The translations under genes and the position numbers were made by a program. From the IMG/VR virus record IMGVR_UViG_3300010354_017031, positions 1-30,899 of that record: 30,899 nt of DNA; one strand, written 5' to 3'. The notes under the pieces were generated by a model that saw only the letters and a list, made by a program, of their open reading frames with translations, was not told the origin of the DNA and ran no database searches. Origin of the DNA: a virus. Of this stretch, positions 22,610 to 30,899 are shown piece by piece; the first letter of the stretch is position 1, and every line of letters starts with the position of its first letter.

Positions 22610-23058
22610 AGCGCTTTCTCTAATAACCGTTCCAACTCAGTAAAAAACACGTTCTGCGCATCCTCTGGAAGTATATTTACCGCTGCGACAGTAGCCAACT
22701 CCACTTTTCTCAGCCTGTCCTGGTTAGAAATCTCGGTATTCATCTTGGTGAGCATGGTAAACAGGGATGAGGTGGCTTGTACCATGTTTTTCATCTCCTG
22801 CGTTGTCGAGGTGCGCGACGTCACTGACTTTCGCAGCTTGGTGACGTACTCCAGCTGGTGCTGGATCTCTTGCATGAGCCCATTGAGGATCTTGTCGGCC
22901 GGGATCGCCTTGGAGTCGGCGCCTATACTGTCGTCGTCAAGGGAAACCGAACGGAGAATATCGTGGATTCTGAGGACTTGGTCGTCCGACAGATACCGCT
23001 TGTGCGTATCGAGCGCTTCAAGCAGCTCGTCGAGGGAGTAGTCTATTAGCGCAGTCAT
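22606..23058 (-). CDS. Candidate terminase small subunit
   Basis: 150 aa, nearly all helical. The N-terminus (YSLDELLEALDTHKRYLSDDQVLRIHDIL) could hold a helical DNA-binding unit; the middle is a predicted coiled coil (QHQLEYVTKLRKSV), and the C-terminus LATVAAVNILPEDAQNVFFTELERLL resembles the C-terminal helices of small terminases. It is the first gene of the virion operon, two genes before the large terminase. The Shine-Dalgarno is weak (AAGAA). The small-terminase call is inference from position, length and helix pattern. Confidence 0.5.
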   Translation of the reverse strand: MTALIDYSLDELLEALDTHKRYLSDDQVLRIHDILRSVSLDDDSIGADSKAIPADKILNGLMQEIQHQLEYVTKLRKSVTSRTSTTQEMKNMVQATSSLFTMLTKMNTEISNQDRLRKVELATVAAVNILPEDAQNVFFTELERLLEKAL

Positions 23059-23392
23059 TTTCTTAAGAATATAACGACTAACGTCGTTAATCTAATAATT
23101 TTGCAAAATTATGAGTGAGCATCCGTGCTCAACGACATTCCGTTGATGCGCAGTATAAGGGGATTTTTTGAGAAAGCGATGATTTGAATCAATACTTGGC
23201 AAATATCTTGCCAATTTTCAGCGAATCCTGAGCAGGAATGTCAAAAACTGCCCAGGATTTGCCGGGAAATGCTCAACGTAACGGGATAGTATTACGTGGA
23301 TTAAACGGAGATAATTGCCGCAGCCCGGGTCAATGAACGCTTCTGATACCCTCACTGCCTGGAATCAGACTGGCGGCGAGGAGGATTATACC
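23059..23392 (+). promoter_or_regulatory. Divergent intergenic region dense in inverted repeats
   Basis: No gene is seen here. Dyads include TAACGAC/GTCGTTA (23072-23089), the perfect 18-bp palindrome ATAATTTTGCAAAATTAT (23095-23112), TTGGCAA/TTGCCAA (23196-23214), and AATCCTG/CAGGATT plus ACGTAA/TTACGT further right. The region lies upstream of the candidate small terminase gene, where promoters, operators and, in lambda-like phages, the cos site are found. No strong sigma-70 promoter could be assigned. Confidence 0.5.
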
Positions 23393-23617
23393 TCAACAGG
23401 CCTTGTTGTCAACAACCGAGATCGGCCCAGGCTTGGGCGAGGCCGGCGGCCAAGGCTTTGGCAGCAGTTCTTGGGGGTCGGCACCGCAGAGCTTGGCGAC
23501 ACTGATCTGGGCAAGGAGATATTCGAAGTATTGTTGGGGGTTCATGGGGGTTGGATTGTATACCGGGAATTGAGATTTGGGAAAAATTTGTGGGGGGAAC
23601 CTATTCGTTGCGTCCAT
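23393..23617 (-). CDS. Possible small minus-strand gene
   Basis: 74 aa, MDATNRFPPQIFPKSQ at the start, then QQYFEYLLAQISVAKLCG and a Pro-rich tail. AGGG lies 4 nt upstream of the ATG. It would be transcribed toward the virion operon. Amino-acid composition is more protein-like than that of the overlapping plus-strand frame, which begins with a TTG and has an unusual Gly/Arg-rich composition. Function unknown; existence uncertain. Confidence 0.4.
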   Translation of the reverse strand: MDATNRFPPQIFPKSQFPVYNPTPMNPQQYFEYLLAQISVAKLCGADPQELLPKPWPPASPKPGPISVVDNKAC

Positions 23618-23695
23618 ACATCCCTGGATTTATCTACGGGTGGGTAATGGGTAGACTATGCATTCCTAACAACGTTACTTATAAAGGTAATCACT

Positions 23696-24502
23696 ATGAA
23701 AACACATCAATTTTTAGATGATCTTAACAATATAGCCGGACATGATAGCGCTATTGCTAAGATTAACTTGGCTATTTCGGCCAATGCTGATGGCTTATCG
23801 GTTTCGGACATGTCCGAAACATTTTCGCGGGTACTGAATCGCATTGTTGCTGATAAGTCCATCATGTTAGACAGTATGAGGCATTCAGACTTGGCTGTCT
23901 TTTCACGTTTCGATAAGGCGATTCAGCGTCACAATGTAATGGTATTGTGGCAATCTGCGCGGCAGCATTTCGAGACGGACGGAGAAACAAGCCGATTTTT
24001 AAGCCATGTGCAATACAGCAAAAAAGACGGCTATCATTTTACTGTCAAAGCAAGCAAGGTTGAGATTAAGGGATATTCTACGTTTGAGGCAGCCGATGGT
24101 CAGCGCTTGATCTTATCGGCTAAAGCTAAAGCCGATAGCATTGATGTCTCGATCGAAACCTTGGTCATCCCGATTGAGCTGTTAATCGCAGACTATGAGA
24201 CATGGAAACTTAGTTTAACAGACTTTGTAGCCGTTGAATTACATGCTAGTCCAGAAACTGCACCGGACATCACGCTTGAAACTGTTAATAACGATGAAAG
24301 CTTGCTAAAAAGTCTAAATGTGATGAAAGGACAACATCAAATAGACTTATATCAGCTTCAAAGCGTACAAGCTGAAAACCAATCATTATTGCAACAAATC
24401 GCTGAACTGCAAAAAGAAGTTTCAAAATATCGAGACTTATATCATGTCGCTAGTGGCTTGCTTTCAATGCCTGTTAAACCAAAAAGCAAAAGACGTGCAT
24501 AA
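23696..24502 (+). CDS. Coiled-coil protein carrying an intragenic palindrome, unknown
   Basis: 268 aa. The N-terminus (THQFLDDLNNIAGHDSAIAKI) and the middle look globular, with a strand-rich part around residues 105-160 (YHFTVKASKVEIKGYSTFEA). Residues about 205-250 form a coiled coil (LYQLQSVQAENQSLLQQIAELQ), and the C-terminus is basic (KPKSKRRA). AAGG precedes the ATG. Codons are more AT-rich than in neighbouring genes, suggesting separate origin. Codons 36-42 contain the 20-bp palindrome at 23801. A DNA-binding protein that acts on the palindrome family is conceivable but no DNA-binding motif is recognised. Confidence 0.85.
   Translation: MKTHQFLDDLNNIAGHDSAIAKINLAISANADGLSVSDMSETFSRVLNRIVADKSIMLDSMRHSDLAVFSRFDKAIQRHNVMVLWQSARQHFETDGETSRFLSHVQYSKKDGYHFTVKASKVEIKGYSTFEAADGQRLILSAKAKADSIDVSIETLVIPIELLIADYETWKLSLTDFVAVELHASPETAPDITLETVNNDESLLKSLNVMKGQHQIDLYQLQSVQAENQSLLQQIAELQKEVSKYRDLYHVASGLLSMPVKPKSKRRA
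23801..23820 (+). repeat. Palindrome copy 1 (GTTTCGGACATGTCCGAAAC)
   Basis: A perfect 20-bp palindrome inside the coding region of the 268-aa gene. Core CGGACATGTCCG is identical to copies at 24694 and 25579. Confidence 0.9.
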
Positions 24503-24511
24503 TTAACTATA

Positions 24512-24570
24512 GCGTGCGGTAGCAATACCGCACGCGCACGCCTAAACCTATCGGCTGACGGTGGGTTTAG

Positions 24571-24583
<13 letters not shown>
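24512..24583 (+). other. Two mutually exclusive hairpins after the 268-aa gene
   Basis: Hairpin A: GCGTGCGGTA-GCAA-TACCGCACGC (24512-24535), a perfect 10-bp stem with a GNRA-type tetraloop, beginning 9 nt after the stop codon. Hairpin B: 24529-24548 pairs perfectly with 24564-24583 (20 bp), using the 3' arm of A. Only one can form at a time. No U-tract follows either, so this is not a standard terminator. Confidence 0.75.
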
Positions 24584-24638
<55 letters not shown>

Positions 24639-24693
24639 TATACGCCCGTTTACTCGGGGGCGCATTGTTGCGCCTATTGCATTGGTAGCCTGA

Positions 24694-24715
24694 TTTTTCG
24701 GACATGTCCGAAAAA
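24694..24715 (+). repeat. Palindrome copy 2 (22 bp)
   Basis: TTTTT-CGGACATGTCCG-AAAAA, a perfect 22-bp palindrome between the Z-DNA-prone tract and the structured region. No gene is convincingly associated with it. Confidence 0.9.
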
Positions 24716-24919
24716 AGCCGGCATAACTTGAAACCGGTACATTTTGATTTAATGGACTTTCTGGGTTTCCCCAGGGCGATAAGACATGCTTCGGCGTCGC
24801 CATACTTCTTTCAACATTATATTGAACCCATTCCGGGCCTTGTTTTGGTATCCGGGGTGGTAAACCTAGCTGCGTGGCTACCATTCTTGGACGGTGGCAA
24901 ACCTAAGCAGGACAAGTGT

Positions 24920-24948
24920 TTGAGCTTTTCGGTCCGATTTTTCGTAAT
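24920..24948 (+). promoter_or_regulatory. Weak candidate sigma-70 promoter ahead of the structured RNA region
   Basis: TTGAGC (24920-24925) and CGTAAT (24943-24948) are separated by 17 bp; each matches its consensus at four of six positions. The -10 overlaps the first copy of the 17-bp direct repeat. Transcription would start near 24955, just before the hairpin-rich region. Confidence 0.25.
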
Positions 24949-24979
24949 TGTTTAGCAAAATACGTAATTGTTTAGCAAA
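24943..24979 (+). repeat. Direct repeat CGTAATTGTTTAGCAAA, two copies
   Basis: Two identical 17-bp copies at 24943-24959 and 24963-24979, period 20 bp (about two helical turns). Such phasing suits a protein-binding site or short iterons upstream of the structured region. Confidence 0.85.
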
Positions 24980-24984
24980 GTGCC

Positions 24985-25500
24985 GCGTGGCGGGTGAGGG
25001 TGTTTACTGCAAAGTATCGGAAGTACGGGCAGTGCTGCACGGGTGAGGACTAAGCTCTCCCTGCGAAAAGCGGGCATAGCGCGAAAGCGCATTTGGCATA
25101 TGCTGCGCGTCGCATAGGGCTTAGGGGTAGCCTATTCGAAAAGATAACAGAGGACTAAGGCGCATAACCGACAAGTCTGGAGTAAGGATGCGTAAAATAT
25201 TGAACAGTGCAGACTATCAACAAAACGAGGGGGACTAGCCATCCCACGCGGTTATAGTCGTTTCGAGTTAGATTCTCGGGCACACCCTTTTTAATGTCCC
25301 CAGGCGCTTGCATCATGGATTGGTGCAGCTTACGCGGCAAACTATCCGGTGAAATGATATATCTGGATAAGTGCCTTACGTAATGAGCGAGCTAAGCAAT
25401 GGGGCGTTAATCAAGATAATCCTATATAAGCATATAGGGTTATGCTGATTAACGCGGTGCGCCCTGCGTAAAGATCATAGTGTGGCGCTGTACCTCCCTG
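24985..25500 (+). ncRNA. Candidate large structured non-coding RNA
   Basis: About 500 nt without a plausible gene fold into successive local hairpins: ACTGC/GCAGT (25006/25029), GGGTGAG/CTCTCCC (25041/25055), GCGC-GAAA-GCGC (25079-25090), ATAGGGCT/AGCCTAT (25114/25129), GACTAT/ATAGTC (25212/25254) with nested CG and GGG/CCC pairs, CGAG/CTCG (25264/25275), TTGCATCA/TGGTGCAG (25308/25321), TATCCGG/CTGGATA (25343/25363), a 22-bp hairpin (25404-25455), and GGTGCGCC/GGCGC-ACC (25456/25484). Two terminators follow at once, as expected for a defined RNA 3' end. GAGGACTAAG occurs twice. Phages are known to encode large ornate RNAs such as GOLLD and ROOL; I cannot say this belongs to either. An origin of replication is an alternative. 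Confidence 0.5.
25404..25455 (+). repeat. Long near-perfect inverted repeat (52 bp)
   Basis: Outer 10-bp stem GCGTTAATCA/TGATTAACGC, a 2x2 internal mismatch, and an inner 12-bp stem ATAATCCTATAT/ATATAGGGTTAT (one G-T pair), with loop AAGC. No T-run follows on either strand, so it is not an intrinsic terminator. It is the strongest single helix in the structured region. Confidence 0.85.
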
Positions 25501-25551
25501 CCCCCAACTGATTTTTCCGACATGTCGGAAACTTTGGAAGGGGGCTTTTTT
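25500..25551 (+). terminator. Terminator T1 with embedded palindrome copy 3
   Basis: GCCCCC (25500-25505) pairs with GGGGGC (25540-25545), followed by six T. The loop carries the palindrome TTTCCGACATGTCGGAAA (25514-25531), giving an inner 7-bp stem. It ends the candidate ncRNA unit. Confidence 0.8.
25514..25531 (+). repeat. Palindrome copy 3, symmetric variant
   Basis: TTTCCGACATGTCGGAAA. Compared with the other copies, G to C and C to G changes occur at mirrored positions, so the dyad is kept. Confidence 0.9.
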
Positions 25552-25564
25552 ATTCTACCAACCT

Positions 25565-25616
25565 GCCCCCAACTAACTTTTCGGACATGTCCGAAATTTT
25601 GGAAGGGGGTTTTTTT
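25565..25616 (+). terminator. Terminator T2 with embedded palindrome copy 4
   Basis: GCCCCC (25565-25570) pairs with GGGGG (25605-25609) followed by seven T. The palindrome TTTCGGACATGTCCGAAA lies in the loop (25579-25596). T1 and T2 are diverged tandem duplicates of about 65 bp. T2 ends 17 nt before the first gene of the early operon, insulating it from upstream transcription. Confidence 0.82.
25579..25596 (+). repeat. Palindrome copy 4
   Basis: TTTCGGACATGTCCGAAA, a perfect 18-bp palindrome with the same core as copies 1 and 2, inside terminator T2. Confidence 0.9.
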
Positions 25617-25633
25617 ATGCCCGGAGAAAAATA

Positions 25634-25957
25634 ATGATACGCTTAAGATCAATACTTCCCCAACAGGGGATGTCAACCCAAAAGACCACAAGTTTTCTCA
25701 GTGAGGTGATGCTATACATGCGGAGAGATGGCACAGATGCCCCTCCTTATGACAAGGAGAACTACTTGGAAGAGAAAGACTTCCAGTTCGTAGGAGTCTC
25801 CTGCCAGTCAGGCGAGATCATCATGAAGAGGTGGGTCGAATCTGAGGGCAAGACCATCTGGAGCTTCTACGACGCTGAATCCAAGCCGACCTGGGTGATC
25901 GGAACAAAGGAAGAGTTCATCGCTTTCTCCGAAAAGGATGCAAGGAGTTGGGGATGA
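25634..25957 (+). CDS. Small early protein, unknown
   Basis: 107 aa. GGAG lies 7 nt before the ATG at 25634, just after terminator T2; a later in-frame ATG at 25718 (MRRDGTDAPP) also has GAGG upstream. The second half is acidic/aromatic (IWSFYDAESKPTWVIGTKEEF) and probably a small globular fold. First gene of a tightly packed plus-strand operon; the next ATG overlaps its stop as ATGA. No promoter is evident between T2 and the gene, so some read-through may be needed. Function unknown. Confidence 0.75.
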   Translation: MIRLRSILPQQGMSTQKTTSFLSEVMLYMRRDGTDAPPYDKENYLEEKDFQFVGVSCQSGEIIMKRWVESEGKTIWSFYDAESKPTWVIGTKEEFIAFSEKDARSWG

Positions 25958-26139
25958 AAGCATACGTATTGATTGCCGTGAGCGTAGCCGTTATGCTTTG
26001 CGGCGACCCCCTCGGCGACGCCCTGGGCACACTGATTGAGCAAGCATATGAATGCAATCATATGAATGCTTTTCCTATGGATGCAAACCGTAAAATTTAC
26101 GGTTTACCGGAGAATGCAAATGAAGAATATCATCTTTGA
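25954..26139 (+). CDS. Small membrane or secreted protein
   Basis: 61 aa from the ATG at 25954, overlapping the upstream TGA by 4 nt, with GGAG nearby. The N-terminus (KAYVLIAVSVAVMLCGDPLG) is a hydrophobic signal-like or anchor segment; the Cys is not in a good lipobox. The rest is acidic. The 21-bp dyad at 26085 lies within its coding sequence (residues NRKIYGLP). Function unknown. Confidence 0.6.
   Translation: MKAYVLIAVSVAVMLCGDPLGDALGTLIEQAYECNHMNAFPMDANRKIYGLPENANEEYHL
26085..26105 (+). repeat. Dyad AAACCGTAAA-A-TTTACGGTTT
   Basis: 10-bp arms around a single base, 14 nt before the start of the 36-aa ORF. The CCGTAAA/TTTACGG core recurs at 27861 and 29066, also upstream of start codons. 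Confidence 0.9.
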
Positions 26140-26230
26140 ATATGGGCTCTATGCCATCGTTTTCCTGCTCGCGACTGCCCAGCGCGTCGCCGACCGCCGC
26201 AAGGCAAGGAGTAAGAATGCAAAACGCTAA
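26120..26230 (+). CDS. 36-aa membrane micropeptide
   Basis: ATG at 26120 with GGAG 7 nt upstream. The sequence begins MKNIIFEYGLYAIVFLLATA, one probable membrane helix, followed by a basic tail (QRVADRRKARSKNAKR), consistent with a cytoplasmic C-terminus. It overlaps the 3' end of the upstream gene and the 5' end of the next. Small single-span proteins of this kind are common in phage early operons, often as host-modulating factors; function unknown. Confidence 0.6.
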   Translation: MKNIIFEYGLYAIVFLLATAQRVADRRKARSKNAKR

Positions 26231-26429
26231 GCGCAATTGGTTCAACACCCTCAACGAAGCTCTCGAATCCGAGGGCCTCGTCGAACTCTGGCCGTTGGGG
26301 CTTAACATCCAGTATGGCCAAACCGTCGACCATACCGCCGATGATGGCACAAGGTATGGGCATTACATCACAATCTATAGGGATGAGAATGGGCGCTACG
26401 AAAGGCCCGTGCATTATCCAAGGGGATGA
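26217..26429 (+). CDS. Small early protein, unknown
   Basis: 70 aa, MQNAKRNWFNTLNEALESEG, from the ATG at 26217 preceded by AAGGAG with 5-nt spacing. A longer in-frame start at 26136 has no ribosome site. The middle has alternating strands (YGHYITIYRDENGRY). It overlaps the 36-aa ORF by 14 nt. No family recognised. Confidence 0.75.
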   Translation: MQNAKRNWFNTLNEALESEGLVELWPLGLNIQYGQTVDHTADDGTRYGHYITIYRDENGRYERPVHYPRG

Positions 26430-26431
26430 AC

Positions 26432-26626
26432 ATGAAATACTTTTTCTTTTTCGTAGTAACGACCAAGGTCGTTAGGTTCTACTGGCATGATGATGCCGAG
26501 AACCCGAATCACGGTGACGGATCCAATCCGAGACAAGGCCGGCCTTGCGGCGAAGTAATCGACGAAATCCTGGCAGGATACAAGCTCACACGTGAGCGCG
26601 TATGGATGCAAGTGAGGTTCGAATGA
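26432..26626 (+). CDS. Small early protein, unknown
   Basis: 64 aa from the ATG at 26432, chosen because AAGGGG is 6 nt upstream; the ATG at 26426 overlaps that ribosome site. N-terminus MKYFFFFVVTTKVVRFYWHD is aromatic-rich; a Pro/Gly-rich linker and a C-terminal half with CGEVIDEILAGYKLTRERV follow. It overlaps the next gene as ATGA. Function unknown. Confidence 0.7.
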   Translation: MKYFFFFVVTTKVVRFYWHDDAENPNHGDGSNPRQGRPCGEVIDEILAGYKLTRERVWMQVRFE

Positions 26627-26799
26627 ACTTGGTCCAGCATCTCGCTATGCAGGGATTCCTCTCTGTTATCGGCATCATAACCCTCTTCCTGCTCTTCACA
26701 TTCGCAGTGATCAGCATGGATGATGGCCCATTACGAAACTCGATCATCGGCGGCATCCTTGCCGCCCTCATGTTTGCGATTTATGGGGGGCACATATGA
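26623..26799 (+). CDS. Two-span membrane protein
   Basis: 58 aa from the ATG at 26623 (ATGA overlap; GAGG 5 nt upstream). Two hydrophobic stretches, GFLSVIGIITLFLLFTFAVI and IIGGILAALMFAIYGGHI, are separated by a short charged turn (MDDGPLRN). This topology suits a small holin-like or early membrane protein, but location among early genes gives no lysis context. Function unknown. Confidence 0.75.
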   Translation: MNLVQHLAMQGFLSVIGIITLFLLFTFAVISMDDGPLRNSIIGGILAALMFAIYGGHI

Positions 26800-27080
26800 T
26801 CTTCGCGTCGACCTTTGGAGGGCCTATCAAAGTCTCTCCCCCACTAGACGTCATCAAGGAGGATGGATGCCTCCCGCGTATCAAGGTAGAAGTCACAGAA
26901 GCCGCCCCCGGGTACAAGAAAGGAGATACCATCTATGTCTATCGATTCGATCTGTACGAGTATTACAAACAAGTAGGGATGCTGTCTGGGCAGTATTATG
27001 GCAGGCTCGACCTCCAAACACTTGAGCAATACGTCCCGGGCTCAACAAAACACTATGATGAGGTCGTCATATACGACTAG
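26796..27080 (+). CDS. Small early protein, unknown
   Basis: 94 aa, ATGA overlap with the membrane protein. Strand-rich with KVEVTEAAPGYKKGDTIYVY and an aromatic patch (LYEYYKQVGMLSGQYYG). The KGD-x-IYVY element suggests a small beta-barrel fold. Last gene of the seven-gene cluster; GC-rich inverted repeats follow the stop codon. No family recognised. Confidence 0.78.
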   Translation: MIFASTFGGPIKVSPPLDVIKEDGCLPRIKVEVTEAAPGYKKGDTIYVYRFDLYEYYKQVGMLSGQYYGRLDLQTLEQYVPGSTKHYDEVVIYD

Positions 27081-27093
27081 GGCGACGCGCAGC

Positions 27094-27145
27094 GGGCCGC
27101 GTTAGGCAATGGAAGCGCTCTAACCGCACTCGCTGCGGCCCTAAC
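27094..27145 (+). repeat. Alternative-pairing inverted repeats
   Basis: GGGCCGC (27094-27100) pairs with GCGGCCC (27135-27141) and encloses GTTAG/CTAAC (27101/27120). Alternatively GTTAGG (27101) pairs with CCTAAC (27140), or CCGC (27124) with GCGG (27135). It starts 14 nt after the operon's last stop codon. No T-run follows. Confidence 0.7.
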
Positions 27146-27309
27146 ATTTAACTCAGGATACTGGTTCAAAACAACCATATGGATGTGAATCAAGGTGTTA
27201 CAAGAGATATCTCGACATATCTCGACGCCTTTAAACTCAGTGGCTTTAGAGTTTGCTAATATAGCCCCTGTTTTTGGACCTTTTTGGCCTGTTTTCAGGC
27301 AATTTCTCG

Positions 27310-27329
27310 GCACTAAGTGCGGTTTTTTT
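27310..27329 (+). terminator. Weak candidate terminator
   Basis: A short stem GCAC-TAA-GTGC (27310-27320) is followed by GG and seven T (27323-27329). The 4-bp stem is marginal; another hairpin, GCCTG-TTTT-CAGGC, lies just upstream. It could end transcription of the small-gene cluster. Confidence 0.4.
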
Positions 27330-27860
27330 CTGGCACAGTTCTTGTATGTTTTTTTCCGATCATGATCTCGATCAACACTTAGCAAGAATGTTAGAAAAGA
27401 AAATATGGCATAATGACCTTCCTCCTCTATCAGGTATATATATAATAAATTATTGAATAAATTTTATTTATTATTTCAGGGTTTGGAATGTTCAGCTTTC
27501 GTTTTTTCGTCAAGGCACAAAAAACGTCCTAGCATACTTTTCTTGCTAAATCAAGCTGATTATTTTCGCTTCTCAACTGAAATTCCTCCGGCGGGGAATA
27601 GCCTTTTTGGCAAATAAAATTTATTTCATAATATCTTATAAATTCTATTGATAAAAGTGGGGGGTGTTTTAGCGTCGGCTGACAAAGACGTTAGAACTCT
27701 AACAAACTTTGCTCACCTTGCTAAAAATAATTATCTTGACTTATCAATATGAATGTGCATTTGCGACGCCCCAGACTCCAAGCATCCGCCGTAAATCGCC
27801 TCTCTCCCTTGATAATTTATTATGCCAAAAACCTAATAAATTATAGTAATATACCGCAAA

Positions 27861-27875
27861 CCGTAAATTTTACGG
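27861..27875 (+). repeat. Dyad CCGTAAA-T-TTTACGG upstream of regulator-like gene
   Basis: 7-bp arms around one base, ending 21 nt before the ATG at 27897. Same core as the dyads at 26085 and 29066. Confidence 0.9.
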
Positions 27876-27896
27876 CTAACTTCTTTGAGGATTCCT

Positions 27897-28685
27897 ATGA
27901 GTAATCACACCAAGCGGATTGATACTCCGAGCAATACGGAGCATTGGCAAATTATCAAAAAGGCCGTACACGGCAGATCTTACTGGATAGTCTCCTGTAA
28001 AAAATGCGGCAAGTCTGACGAGCGCACTGTTCGTCAGATAGAGACAAACCAATACCCTTGTTCCGGCTGCTCTTCGCACCGTAAGAATGCAATCATGCTC
28101 ACAGCCTTGGGGCAAACCCTGCCGCTGACCGCATGGGCTGAGCTGTACCCTGATCGAATCAAGCCGCAGAATGTCAGGCAATACCTGACCATGCGACGCA
28201 AAGGGCGACCCCCCTATCATCAATACACTGATGAACAGCTCCTATTCGGGGCCAACCTTGATCGTCACCCCGATCCCACCTTGTCAAGCATAGACAAGGA
28301 ATTGCTTTTGCAGGCCAAAAGCGTCAAGAAGAGCGCCTACCTGAACTCCATCGAGGTGATCTTTCAAGATGTCAGCAAGGCCTTGCTCGATGCGATGACG
28401 AAAGAGCTCGCCAAGTATGCCCTGAGCCCTGGCACAATAGCGATGCGCAGCCGCGTCGCCGGCCACGATTATCTTATCGATTCCCTTGGTATTACCGTAG
28501 GGGAGCTGCTCGAAGTGGACACTCCCGTCGCTGAGGTAGCTTCTTACTTGAAGCAGGAGAAGTTTTCCAACGTGTCGGAAAAGTCAAGCAAGTTGCTGGA
28601 TTTCGTCCCGACTGTGGAACCTCATAGGTTACACCTGACGGATATCGAAATAATGGCTCTGTTGAGCCGTTACTCTATGGATTGA
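27897..28685 (+). CDS. Zinc-ribbon / HTH-like putative DNA-binding protein
   Basis: 262 aa from the ATG at 27897 (GAGG 6 nt upstream). Residues about 30-60 hold paired cysteines CKKC and CSGC about 17 residues apart with a basic stretch between, like the zinc ribbons found beside AP2/HNH-type phage DNA-binding domains. Residues about 72-110 (LPLTAWAELYPDRIKPQNVRQYL) resemble the small HTH unit seen in phage regulators and homing-endonuclease proteins. The C-terminal half is helical and unassigned. A dyad lies in its leader. A regulator is the best guess; no nuclease motif is seen. Confidence 0.6.
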   Translation: MSNHTKRIDTPSNTEHWQIIKKAVHGRSYWIVSCKKCGKSDERTVRQIETNQYPCSGCSSHRKNAIMLTALGQTLPLTAWAELYPDRIKPQNVRQYLTMRRKGRPPYHQYTDEQLLFGANLDRHPDPTLSSIDKELLLQAKSVKKSAYLNSIEVIFQDVSKALLDAMTKELAKYALSPGTIAMRSRVAGHDYLIDSLGITVGELLEVDTPVAEVASYLKQEKFSNVSEKSSKLLDFVPTVEPHRLHLTDIEIMALLSRYSMD

Positions 28686-28724
28686 ATTTATCAAATCAAT
28701 AACACTAACAATCGAGGTATTTAT

Positions 28725-29072
28725 ATGGGCATGGCTGAAGTTTTTGCGCCTATCGAGGCTGCCAAGAGAGCGGCTATCTTTGCCGACACCTGGGGACATT
28801 TGTTCCCTAAAGGCCCAGCGACTGGCTATATCGTTGTCGCTCACAGTATTTACAGGGATGTCGTCATCCTTGAGGAGGAACTGAATATCAACGGCTCCCC
28901 TTGGTGGTATGAAACTGTTCATGATTTTGCGCGTGAACGTGCCAAGAAAATGAAACGTGGCTCTGTGAAGCGCTTCGATATCACGGCGCGGCCTGTGCGG
29001 GTTAGAGGGGGGCACGAGATTCGAATCCAGTGTCACCGTTCTTATTATGTTCAACTGAAATTCAAACCGTAA
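28725..29072 (+). CDS. Small early protein, paralogue of the 29476 fragment
   Basis: 115 aa starting MGMAEVFAPIEAAKRAA, with GAGG upstream. The middle is strand-rich (GYIVVAHSIYRDVVILEEEL), then a basic helical part (HDFARERAKKMKRGSVKR) and a C-terminal strand pair ending YVQLKFKP. The first 20 residues are clearly similar to the short ORF at 29476. The dyad at 29066 overlaps the stop region. Function unknown. Confidence 0.8.
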   Translation: MGMAEVFAPIEAAKRAAIFADTWGHLFPKGPATGYIVVAHSIYRDVVILEEELNINGSPWWYETVHDFARERAKKMKRGSVKRFDITARPVRVRGGHEIRIQCHRSYYVQLKFKP

Positions 29073-29082
29073 ATTTTACGGT
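29066..29082 (+). repeat. Dyad ACCGTAAA-T-TTTACGGT
   Basis: 8-bp arms around one base, overlapping the end of the 115-aa gene and 12 nt before the next ATG. Third copy of this dyad family. Confidence 0.9.
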
Positions 29083-29094
29083 AACGAGGTAGTT

Positions 29095-29466
29095 ATGAAA
29101 CACATAGCGATATATCACGCAAAACCGGATATGCTTCCGGACGGTAAGCTCATGCTTGCTGAATATGGATGGGCTACTGGCGAGCGCCGCGAAGAACTCC
29201 GCCAACTGGCTCGCATGTTCTTTGCCACAAGGTATGAATTGGTAGCAATTTACCGCTCCTCGGTAGAGGATACTGGGGACATCACCAATCACCTGGAGAA
29301 GGCGTATAGCAAAACGCAACACATAGGCGAGGATTGGCGGGATAACGAAGGTTTCCACTTCTTGCCTGCTAGGCCTGTTCTTGTCAGATCGACATCGATC
29401 GGCGATATCATGCAGGTGGGCGACGCCCTCTATATTGTTGAACCGATTGGCTACAGCAAACTTTAG
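29095..29466 (+). CDS. Small early protein, unknown
   Basis: 123 aa, MKHIAIYHAKPDMLPDGK, with GAGG upstream and the dyad at 29066 in its leader. The C-terminus STSIGDIMQVGDALYIVEPIG resembles a short motif (S-x-SVGD-x-hydrophobic ... GF) found at the end of several phage and mobile-element accessory proteins; I cannot name the family. The middle is helical (ERREELRQLARMFFATRYEL). Confidence 0.8.
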   Translation: MKHIAIYHAKPDMLPDGKLMLAEYGWATGERREELRQLARMFFATRYELVAIYRSSVEDTGDITNHLEKAYSKTQHIGEDWRDNEGFHFLPARPVLVRSTSIGDIMQVGDALYIVEPIGYSKL

Positions 29467-29475
29467 GAGGCTATC

Positions 29476-29547
29476 ATGAGCATGGAAGAAGTGCTGTCTG
29501 CGCTGGAAGCGGAAAAGTCAGCTGTTTTCATCGACAAAGGTCGCTAG
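29476..29547 (+). pseudogene. 23-aa truncated paralogue of the 28725 gene
   Basis: ATG at 29476 with a strong AGGAGG 5 nt upstream; encodes MSMEEVLSALEAEKSAVFID then KGR and stop. It aligns with the start of the 115-aa protein (M-x-M-x-EV...EA-x-K-x-A-x-F-x-D). Residues 24 onward are absent. It is either a remnant of a duplicated gene or a retained leader peptide, since the ribosome site is intact and the stop is 16 nt before the next gene. Confidence 0.55.
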
Positions 29548-29563
29548 TTCAAGTGAGGTATTT

Positions 29564-30208
29564 ATGCAACAAATAAAGAGAATAACAAAGAAATTCGTGC
29601 CCAGGGAGCATCCTGAGCACGGCACCTGGGGATGGCTCGAAGTAGGGAGCCCCGACACTTATTTTCCGCTGGAAGCGATGGGGGTAGCGCACGACGTCCT
29701 CGAACACAAACTGCGCCCGAAGCAGGGGATCGAAGAGGAGCTGATGGCATTCGGCGCAATGCTCTTCATCCGGTATGATGGAGGATATTGGGTTGATCGT
29801 AGGGGGTCTGCATCAGAATGGTATTATCAGGTCTCGACAGATCTTGCTGAGATGATGGTAAAATACGGGGATGCGGTAAAGCCCTGCAGATCCCGTATAC
29901 TTTCGGGGGAGCTTGAATTTCAGCGATCTATGGGGATAGATCATGCGAATCGTGAGGCATTCGATATGGATTACACGTTTCGTGGGCTCAAATACGAAAC
30001 TAGGGAGAACCTCTTGGGATGGATACGCAAAGGATACCGATGGGCTGTTAATCGGTATGGCGACGCATTCCGTGTTTGCTGTTGGTTTCAGCAAATTCAG
30101 GTATTAGTTGCGCGGCTGGATGCCGAATCATGCTATGAAAACGGTGAGATGCTTGTCATCTCTATTATTAACTCTACAGTTAAAGTGAGAACTCAATATG
30201 GCCCGTAA
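29564..30208 (+). CDS. Early protein with AHDVLEH motif, unknown
   Basis: 214 aa, GAGG upstream. Residues about 38-75 carry MGVAHDVLEHKLRP, then GIEEELMAFGAMLFIRY and YWVDRRG. The H-D-x3-H arrangement and the following ELMAFGA helix recur in phage proteins I have seen with no assigned function; the histidines could bind metal. The C-terminal part is aromatic and strand-rich (FRVCCWFQQIQVLVARL). It overlaps the next gene by 11 nt. Confidence 0.8.
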   Translation: MQQIKRITKKFVPREHPEHGTWGWLEVGSPDTYFPLEAMGVAHDVLEHKLRPKQGIEEELMAFGAMLFIRYDGGYWVDRRGSASEWYYQVSTDLAEMMVKYGDAVKPCRSRILSGELEFQRSMGIDHANREAFDMDYTFRGLKYETRENLLGWIRKGYRWAVNRYGDAFRVCCWFQQIQVLVARLDAESCYENGEMLVISIINSTVKVRTQYGP

Positions 30209-30485
30209 AGGTAAGAGAAAATCAATCTATCAGCAAAGCGTTAATACGCTTGCTGTTCTGCTCATGACTGCGATGCCTGAGCATGACAAGTACACGACGC
30301 TTGAACAGAAGTTCAAGCGTATGTTGTGGAGTAAGAATCCCGCTCGGGTTCGCAGTCCGGAGGAGTTGCGCCTGATGGAAGCGGCCAAACAAAAACGCGC
30401 AAAGCGCTTGGTTCGTAATCAACTGTGGCTGATTAATTACCGCCGCGGGAAGGATTTCGCAGCCTACTGCTTAGGCCTGCGATGA
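30198..30485 (+). CDS. Small basic protein, unknown
   Basis: 95 aa starting MARKGKRKSIYQQSVNTL, strongly basic (RLMEAAKQKRAKRLVRNQ) with helical middle and C-terminus. Overlaps its upstream neighbour by 11 nt and its downstream neighbour as ATGA. Basic composition suggests nucleic-acid contact but no motif is recognised. Confidence 0.72.
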   Translation: MARKGKRKSIYQQSVNTLAVLLMTAMPEHDKYTTLEQKFKRMLWSKNPARVRSPEELRLMEAAKQKRAKRLVRNQLWLINYRRGKDFAAYCLGLR

Positions 30486-30736
30486 GGCTCAGGCAGACAC
30501 ACTACGAGCCGGATGTCATTTGCGAATGCGGCGGCTCGCTTTGGGCGGACTGGGAAATGCCTCCTTTAGACTGGGACGGCGAACCCGTATCTCCTGAACA
30601 GGAGGGCATTCAACCTTGTCCATTTTGTGGAACGATGATTACCGTTAGGAGAGATCATGACAATCGGGGAAATACTGGCATTCCTGCAGCGCTTTCCGCT
30701 GGAAATGCCGTGTGCCATAAAAATACTCGTACCTGA
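30482..30736 (+). CDS. Small zinc-ribbon-like protein
   Basis: 84 aa. Two cysteine pairs, CEC-GG (residues about 14-18) and CPFCG (about 46-50), with acidic and aromatic residues between, suggest a zinc ribbon. The last 27 residues lie in the overlap with the next gene and look less constrained (Gly/Ala/Asn/Thr-rich). ATGA overlap with the upstream gene. Function unknown. Confidence 0.65.
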   Translation: MRLRQTHYEPDVICECGGSLWADWEMPPLDWDGEPVSPEQEGIQPCPFCGTMITVRRDHDNRGNTGIPAALSAGNAVCHKNTRT

Positions 30737-30899
30737 GGATATTCACGCCCTCGCGGAGGAACGCGGGGGGTTCTTAACTGATGAGGAGGTGGCGGACATC
30801 CTGAACAAGGTGCATCAGGGCAAGGATTTTGAAAATACGGATATGCTCGTCGGGCGTAAGCTCGGGGATGAGGACTTAGCTGAGATTGATGAATTAGCG
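30657..30899 (+). CDS. Start of a gene running off the right edge
   Basis: ATG at 30657 with AGGAG 5 nt upstream; open for 81 codons to the window end. Begins MTIGEILAFLQRFPLEMPC, followed by an acidic helical segment (LTDEEVADILNKVHQG). The start overlaps the previous gene by 80 nt in another frame. TIGEILAFLQRFP-type starts occur in small phage proteins of unknown role. C-terminus not visible. Confidence 0.7.
   Translation, partial: MTIGEILAFLQRFPLEMPCAIKILVPEDIHALAEERGGFLTDEEVADILNKVHQGKDFENTDMLVGRKLGDEDLAEIDELA

Follow-up and report, generated by a model that had tools for sequence, protein, structure and literature searches.

The described systems closest to the locus analyzed here are the large phage RNAs ROOL and GOLLD, tandem intrinsic (Rho-independent) terminators, and the terminator-gated early operons of lambdoid phages (lambda N/nut, HK022 put). 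ROOL RNAs often lie beside tRNA islands, and GOLLD RNAs are often over 800 nt in length. In phage HK022, an RNA with two stem-loops (~70 nt) can render RNA polymerase terminator-resistant (PMC9378689). The gene-free stretch at 24985-25490 of the window, i.e., the whole 30.9-kb virus record IMGVR_UViG_3300010354_017031 (positions 1 to 30,899), shares similar length, phage context, and lack of coding capacity with ROOL, and its character as a large gene-free stretch within a phage genome with GOLLD. It is shorter than GOLLD, however, and no tRNA or tmRNA was found in the window, which is probably a genome fragment. A sequence-only reading of this DNA had proposed a new large structured RNA and left membership in GOLLD or ROOL to a covariance-model search, in which neither family matched. 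ROOL was ruled out with its own model (RF03087) at E values up to 10, and GOLLD gave no match in scans with the whole Rfam library at either the gathering score or E up to 10. The same covariance-model search recovered the genuine ROOL RNA of plasmid pMP118 at 130 bits as a positive control. Those scans of 24500-25700 (gathering score and E up to 10) returned only chance matches of the eukaryotic miRNA/IRES type, mostly on a GTGCGC hairpin, as did a scan of 23050-30899 at E up to 1. By eye, the GACTAT/ATAGTC pairing resembles the P7 pairing of group I introns; this candidate, prompted by GACTA/TAGTC, was rejected with the RF00028 covariance model (no match at E up to 10). Small ribozymes were ruled out by the absence of the hammerhead pattern near the region.

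The left 23 kb of the window encodes, on the minus strand, the tape measure, major head protein, maturation protease, portal, and large terminase, whereas the right part carries small plus-strand genes, almost none with a known family. Terminase, head, and portal proteins place the closest named phages among the Vibrio SHOU24 type and the Pseudomonas phages Lana and PMBT3 (~33-37% identity), whose genomes are ~77-88 kb. The first plus-strand gene occupies 23696-24502, and the gene-free stretch begins ~0.5 kb 3' of it; from gene order, we infer that 23696 onward is the early region. The nearest relative, L005, has a terminase 93% identical, and its sequence stops within the early gene, before the gene-free stretch. 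In its divergent promoter region, L005 carries an HNH endonuclease gene (PF13392; L005:306-1085), and the counterpart in the window (23413-23554) measures only ~140 bases without blastn similarity, a difference that in sequence terms looks like a mobile gene gained or lost. A perfect sigma-70 consensus (TTGACA-16-TATAAT) is found at 23412-23385 on the minus strand, directed at the structural genes. Right behind the early gene, window positions 24525-24640 form a hairpin of -53.8 kcal/mol (z -8.4) that extends into a GTGCGC/GTGC repeat, which could be a Z-DNA former.

Two claims about coding potential in the sequence-only reading held. Scored by the phage's own codon usage, none of the frames in 24985-25490 carries a coding signal, and no ORF of at least 62 aa exists on either strand of 24956-25448. 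The ~500 nt are thus gene-free, and the absence of any frame signal argues against a decayed gene as their origin. The length of the gap is nevertheless a weak argument for an RNA because long ORF-free intervals are nothing unusual among these phages; relatives often leave 350-750 nt upstream of the terminase without an ORF, in sequence unlike this stretch. The features in and around the stretch are as follows.

24943 to 24979, no strand assigned: direct repeat, two copies of CGTAATTGTTTAGCAAA with starts 20 nt apart
24699 to 24710, no strand assigned: dyad CGGACATGTCCG, also at 23805-23816 within the early gene and at 25582-25593 in terminator 2
24967 to 25400, plus strand: candidate closed RNA domain (prediction only), with closing helix 24967-24976/25391-25400, then 24996-25003/25282-25289, and inner helices
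25050 to 25124, plus strand: sturdiest predicted 5' arm, CTAAGCTCT/AGGGCTTAG plus inner stems and a GCGC stem capped by GAAA; its helices occur in 16/16 constructs
25404 to 25455, plus strand: 22-bp hairpin of 10 + 12 bp with a 2x2 internal loop between them and a 4-nt loop (-28.3 kcal/mol, z -7.1)
25500 to 25551, plus strand: intrinsic terminator 1, a 17-bp interrupted hairpin (25500-25545) followed by TTTTTT (25546-25551; -24.9 kcal/mol, z -4.8)
25517 to 25528, no strand assigned: variant dyad CCGACATGTCGG, in terminator 1
25565 to 25616, plus strand: intrinsic terminator 2, a paralogous hairpin (25565-25610) with its T-run at 25610-25616 (-23.7 kcal/mol, z -4.6)
25623 to 25626, plus strand: GGAG ribosome-binding site of gene 25634, between the T-run of terminator 2 and the ATG
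25634 to 25957, plus strand: downstream early gene, 107 aa, with a codon-usage score typical for this phage's genes

The two strong terminators that had been read at the end of the stretch look real. Both combine a stable GC-rich hairpin with a U-tract encoded by 6-7 T, and none of 200 shuffles equaled the stability of the first hairpin. They are direct repeats, 87% identical and 65 nt apart, with a unit of ~63 nt, i.e., a tandem duplication. The copies differ at four stem positions without a single broken pair: one compensatory change replaces both partners (C-G versus G-C) and two single changes keep the pair (G-C versus G-U and G-U versus A-U). Such retention of pairing was matched by 245 of 500 shuffles and, coming from two sequences, is suggestive rather than statistical. 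As in described tandem intrinsic terminators, the GC-rich hairpins directly abut the T-runs in two copies on the early-gene strand; what differs is that the long interrupted stems hold the palindrome CGGACATGTCCG, present elsewhere in the region too. The 22-bp hairpin just upstream was also confirmed, standing well above chance (0 of 200 shuffles equally stable). This verified core, tandem intrinsic terminators plus one strong hairpin, is of an already known kind.

The best-supported reading, which we hold tentatively, is a transcription barrier: a double terminator that would gate the early genes downstream and is preceded by an untranslated transcript. Transcription would cross the stretch and the hairpins would terminate it, so that the untranslated rightward early transcript would end here, at a strong intrinsic terminator present in duplicate. 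RNA polymerase arriving from the early gene at 23696-24502 would be halted, and the cluster of small genes starting at 25634, whose first product (107 aa) has no PHROG or Pfam match, would be reached only via read-through, a terminator-resistant polymerase, or a phage-specific promoter. We infer that the 430 nt ahead of the terminators are for the most part leader or spacer of unproven function. The T-run of terminator 2 ends at 25616, 17 nt upstream of the ATG of gene 25634, a position that suits a terminator-gated operon no less than it suits the end of a stand-alone RNA. A simple scan of 24500-25634 found no plus-strand sigma-70-like promoter with 9/12 matches and usual spacing, and relaxed scans produced poor candidates only; gene 25634 thus lacks an obvious promoter of its own. 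As a counterpoint, the phage could rely on promoters of its own, and if an unrecognized promoter serves the downstream genes, the terminators may simply end the upstream RNA. The arrangement recalls lambdoid terminator-gated operons in that terminators sit just ahead of early genes and behind an untranslated stretch. It departs from lambda in that no lambda-type boxA (GCTCTT or a boxA-like word), and hence no nut site of boxA followed by a boxB hairpin, occurs in 24500-25640, and no N-like antiterminator protein is recognizable; a gating role here is a prediction. Such a gate would show how an uncharacterized siphophage group may time its early genes.

A stand-alone structured RNA, so far an undescribed class with a single member, is a less probable explanation and on balance doubtful. 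This early RNA would be ~600 nt long, running from about 24960 to a double-terminator 3' end at 25551 or 25616. The absence of coding signal from all frames, the strong 3' end, the G- and A-rich plus strand, and a predicted closed multibranch fold with several helices of at least 0.9 pair probability speak for it. Should a discrete RNA be produced from this stretch, the small set of large phage RNAs, which have no known function, would gain one more class. The fold is, however, sensitive to the choice of construct ends: two helices of the candidate domain at 24967-25400 reached pair probabilities of 0.97 and 0.96 in one construct, yet the closing helix was present in only 25% of 16 alternative constructs. 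The wider domain around the sturdiest arm (25036-25211) is not above chance (z -0.7). Folding of 24940-25620 as a whole exceeds that of shuffles (z -4.6), an excess stemming from 25400-25616; minimum free energy (MFE) z scores were -0.1 for 24985-25360 alone and -1.0 for 24960-25403, and 120-nt windows within 24985-25400 averaged about -0.2 on both strands. Energy, ensemble definition, and hairpin number of the 5' part all fall inside the shuffle range, and no sigma-70-like promoter precedes it.

The individual hairpins first pointed out in the stretch exist as sequence. Ten local hairpins can indeed be counted, a number not above chance (7.9 +/- 2.2 in shuffles, 25% of which reach 10). The bulged GGTGCGCC/GGCGC-ACC stem is present but within chance (z -1.0; 30 of 200 shuffles equally good). 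The GACTAT/ATAGTC arm and the GAAA-capped 4-bp GCGC stem have mean pair probabilities of only 0.68 (moderate) and 0.55, respectively.

Controls limit what these statistics can say in either direction. The genuine pMP118 ROOL RNA gave an MFE z of 0.0 and a mean local z of +0.2, and the flat z of 24985-25360 is therefore no argument against a structured RNA; a real ROOL is equally featureless by folding energy, and weak z scores were not counted against this explanation. Conversely, RNase P RNA, tmRNA, and 16S pieces overlapped coding DNA in all four measures tried, and known large RNAs could not be told from coding DNA by folding energy, by ensemble definition, or by how A-rich their unpaired bases are, so apparent hairpin richness is no argument for an RNA either. 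Single-sequence folding cannot decide the question of a structured RNA; covariation could. The practical lesson is that statistics from folding one sequence miss even a real ROOL RNA, and that without homologues neither a highly structured look nor folding no better than that of shuffles is informative.

Homologues were sought widely, and the failure to find any weighs against a stand-alone RNA. Beyond Rfam, blastn against 50,697 phages (E up to 10) and 72,556 plasmids found nothing similar to the stretch, and 46 loci with related terminases (722 kb) held no similar sequence. Searches of IMG/VR with exact 16-18-mers gave five matches to one of them, with similarity ending at 18-28 nt. A one-sequence covariance model run on 36 loci and 24 whole records produced a single weak match, in Pseudomonas phage Lana, not taken as a homologue; it skips ~75 positions of the model and has broken pairs. 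The 398 Pseudomonadota genomes yielded no homologue, a weak search because the host phylum is a guess. Several of the collections omit records very near the window, and failure to find homologues there thus does not mean that none exist.

That the stretch is a cis-acting leader controlling the double terminator, as an attenuator or a put-like antitermination RNA enabling read-through into 25634 onward, appears unlikely. By this account, upstream hairpins would modify RNA polymerase or refold. A hairpin leader with terminators immediately ahead of a gene's ribosome-binding site fits such control, and the two-stem-loop RNA of HK022 is a precedent for making polymerase terminator-resistant (PMC9378689). 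No mutually exclusive antiterminator pairing was identified, however, boxA is absent from 24500-25640, and the put RNA is far shorter than this stretch.

A role at the DNA level, as an operator or a replication or partition region, is improbable. The dyad CGGACNNGTCCG and the direct repeats would bind a phage protein, the terminator hairpins carrying copies of the dyad. Three exact copies of CGGACATGTCCG (0.08 expected) and one variant all fall in 23.8-25.6 kb, and from its sequence the dyad could mark a protein-binding site. As an observation in its own right, the longer palindrome TTTCGGACATGTCCGAAA (variant in terminator 1) clusters at 23802-23819, 24695-24714, 25512-25531, and 25578-25596, with one copy intragenic. 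A related phage (terminase 51% identical) has CGGACCAGTCCG near its own early gene, with CGGAC-NN-GTCCG as the common core, and shows the same design in and near that gene. The two 17-bp CGTAATTGTTTAGCAAA repeats might bind a protein or belong to a start region; no third copy occurs window-wide with up to 3 mismatches. Against such a site, an exact match occurs just once in the relative, its other copies carrying one mismatch and lying in a coding tandem repeat; the early proteins of window and relative are not recognizably homologous, and the region lacks a DnaA box. Moreover, the variant dyad of terminator 1 preserves pairing rather than sequence, and a hairpin role is therefore favored there. 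When used to find the host, the palindrome pointed to five unrelated genomes.

Least probable of all is that, the terminators excepted, the stretch is nonfunctional spacer or debris of past insertions between two early gene blocks: its 5' part is indistinguishable from shuffles, it is not conserved in relatives, and genes turn over nearby (the L005 HNH gene is missing here), but no trace of a coding frame is left, and phages rarely retain 500 useless bases for long.

The 51% relative (L007) showed further elements. Just behind its early gene, the minus strand carries two hammerhead-like cores, CTGATGAG...CGAAAC, one of which (L007:2895-2985) scores 45.6 bits against Rfam Hammerhead_3 (gathering score 48.5; E 6e-8), while the other (L007:2590-2660) matches the hammerhead pattern only. 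In-frame 36-bp repeats based on the word CGGACCAGTC run through the relative's early protein (L007:3091-3271 and L008:1-121). Two identical tandem copies of ~658 bp occupy L007:919-2242, and every copy contains an AT-rich center flanked by a large imperfect inverted repeat, together with a TTATCCACA DnaA-type box; they are possibly an origin or an assembly artifact.
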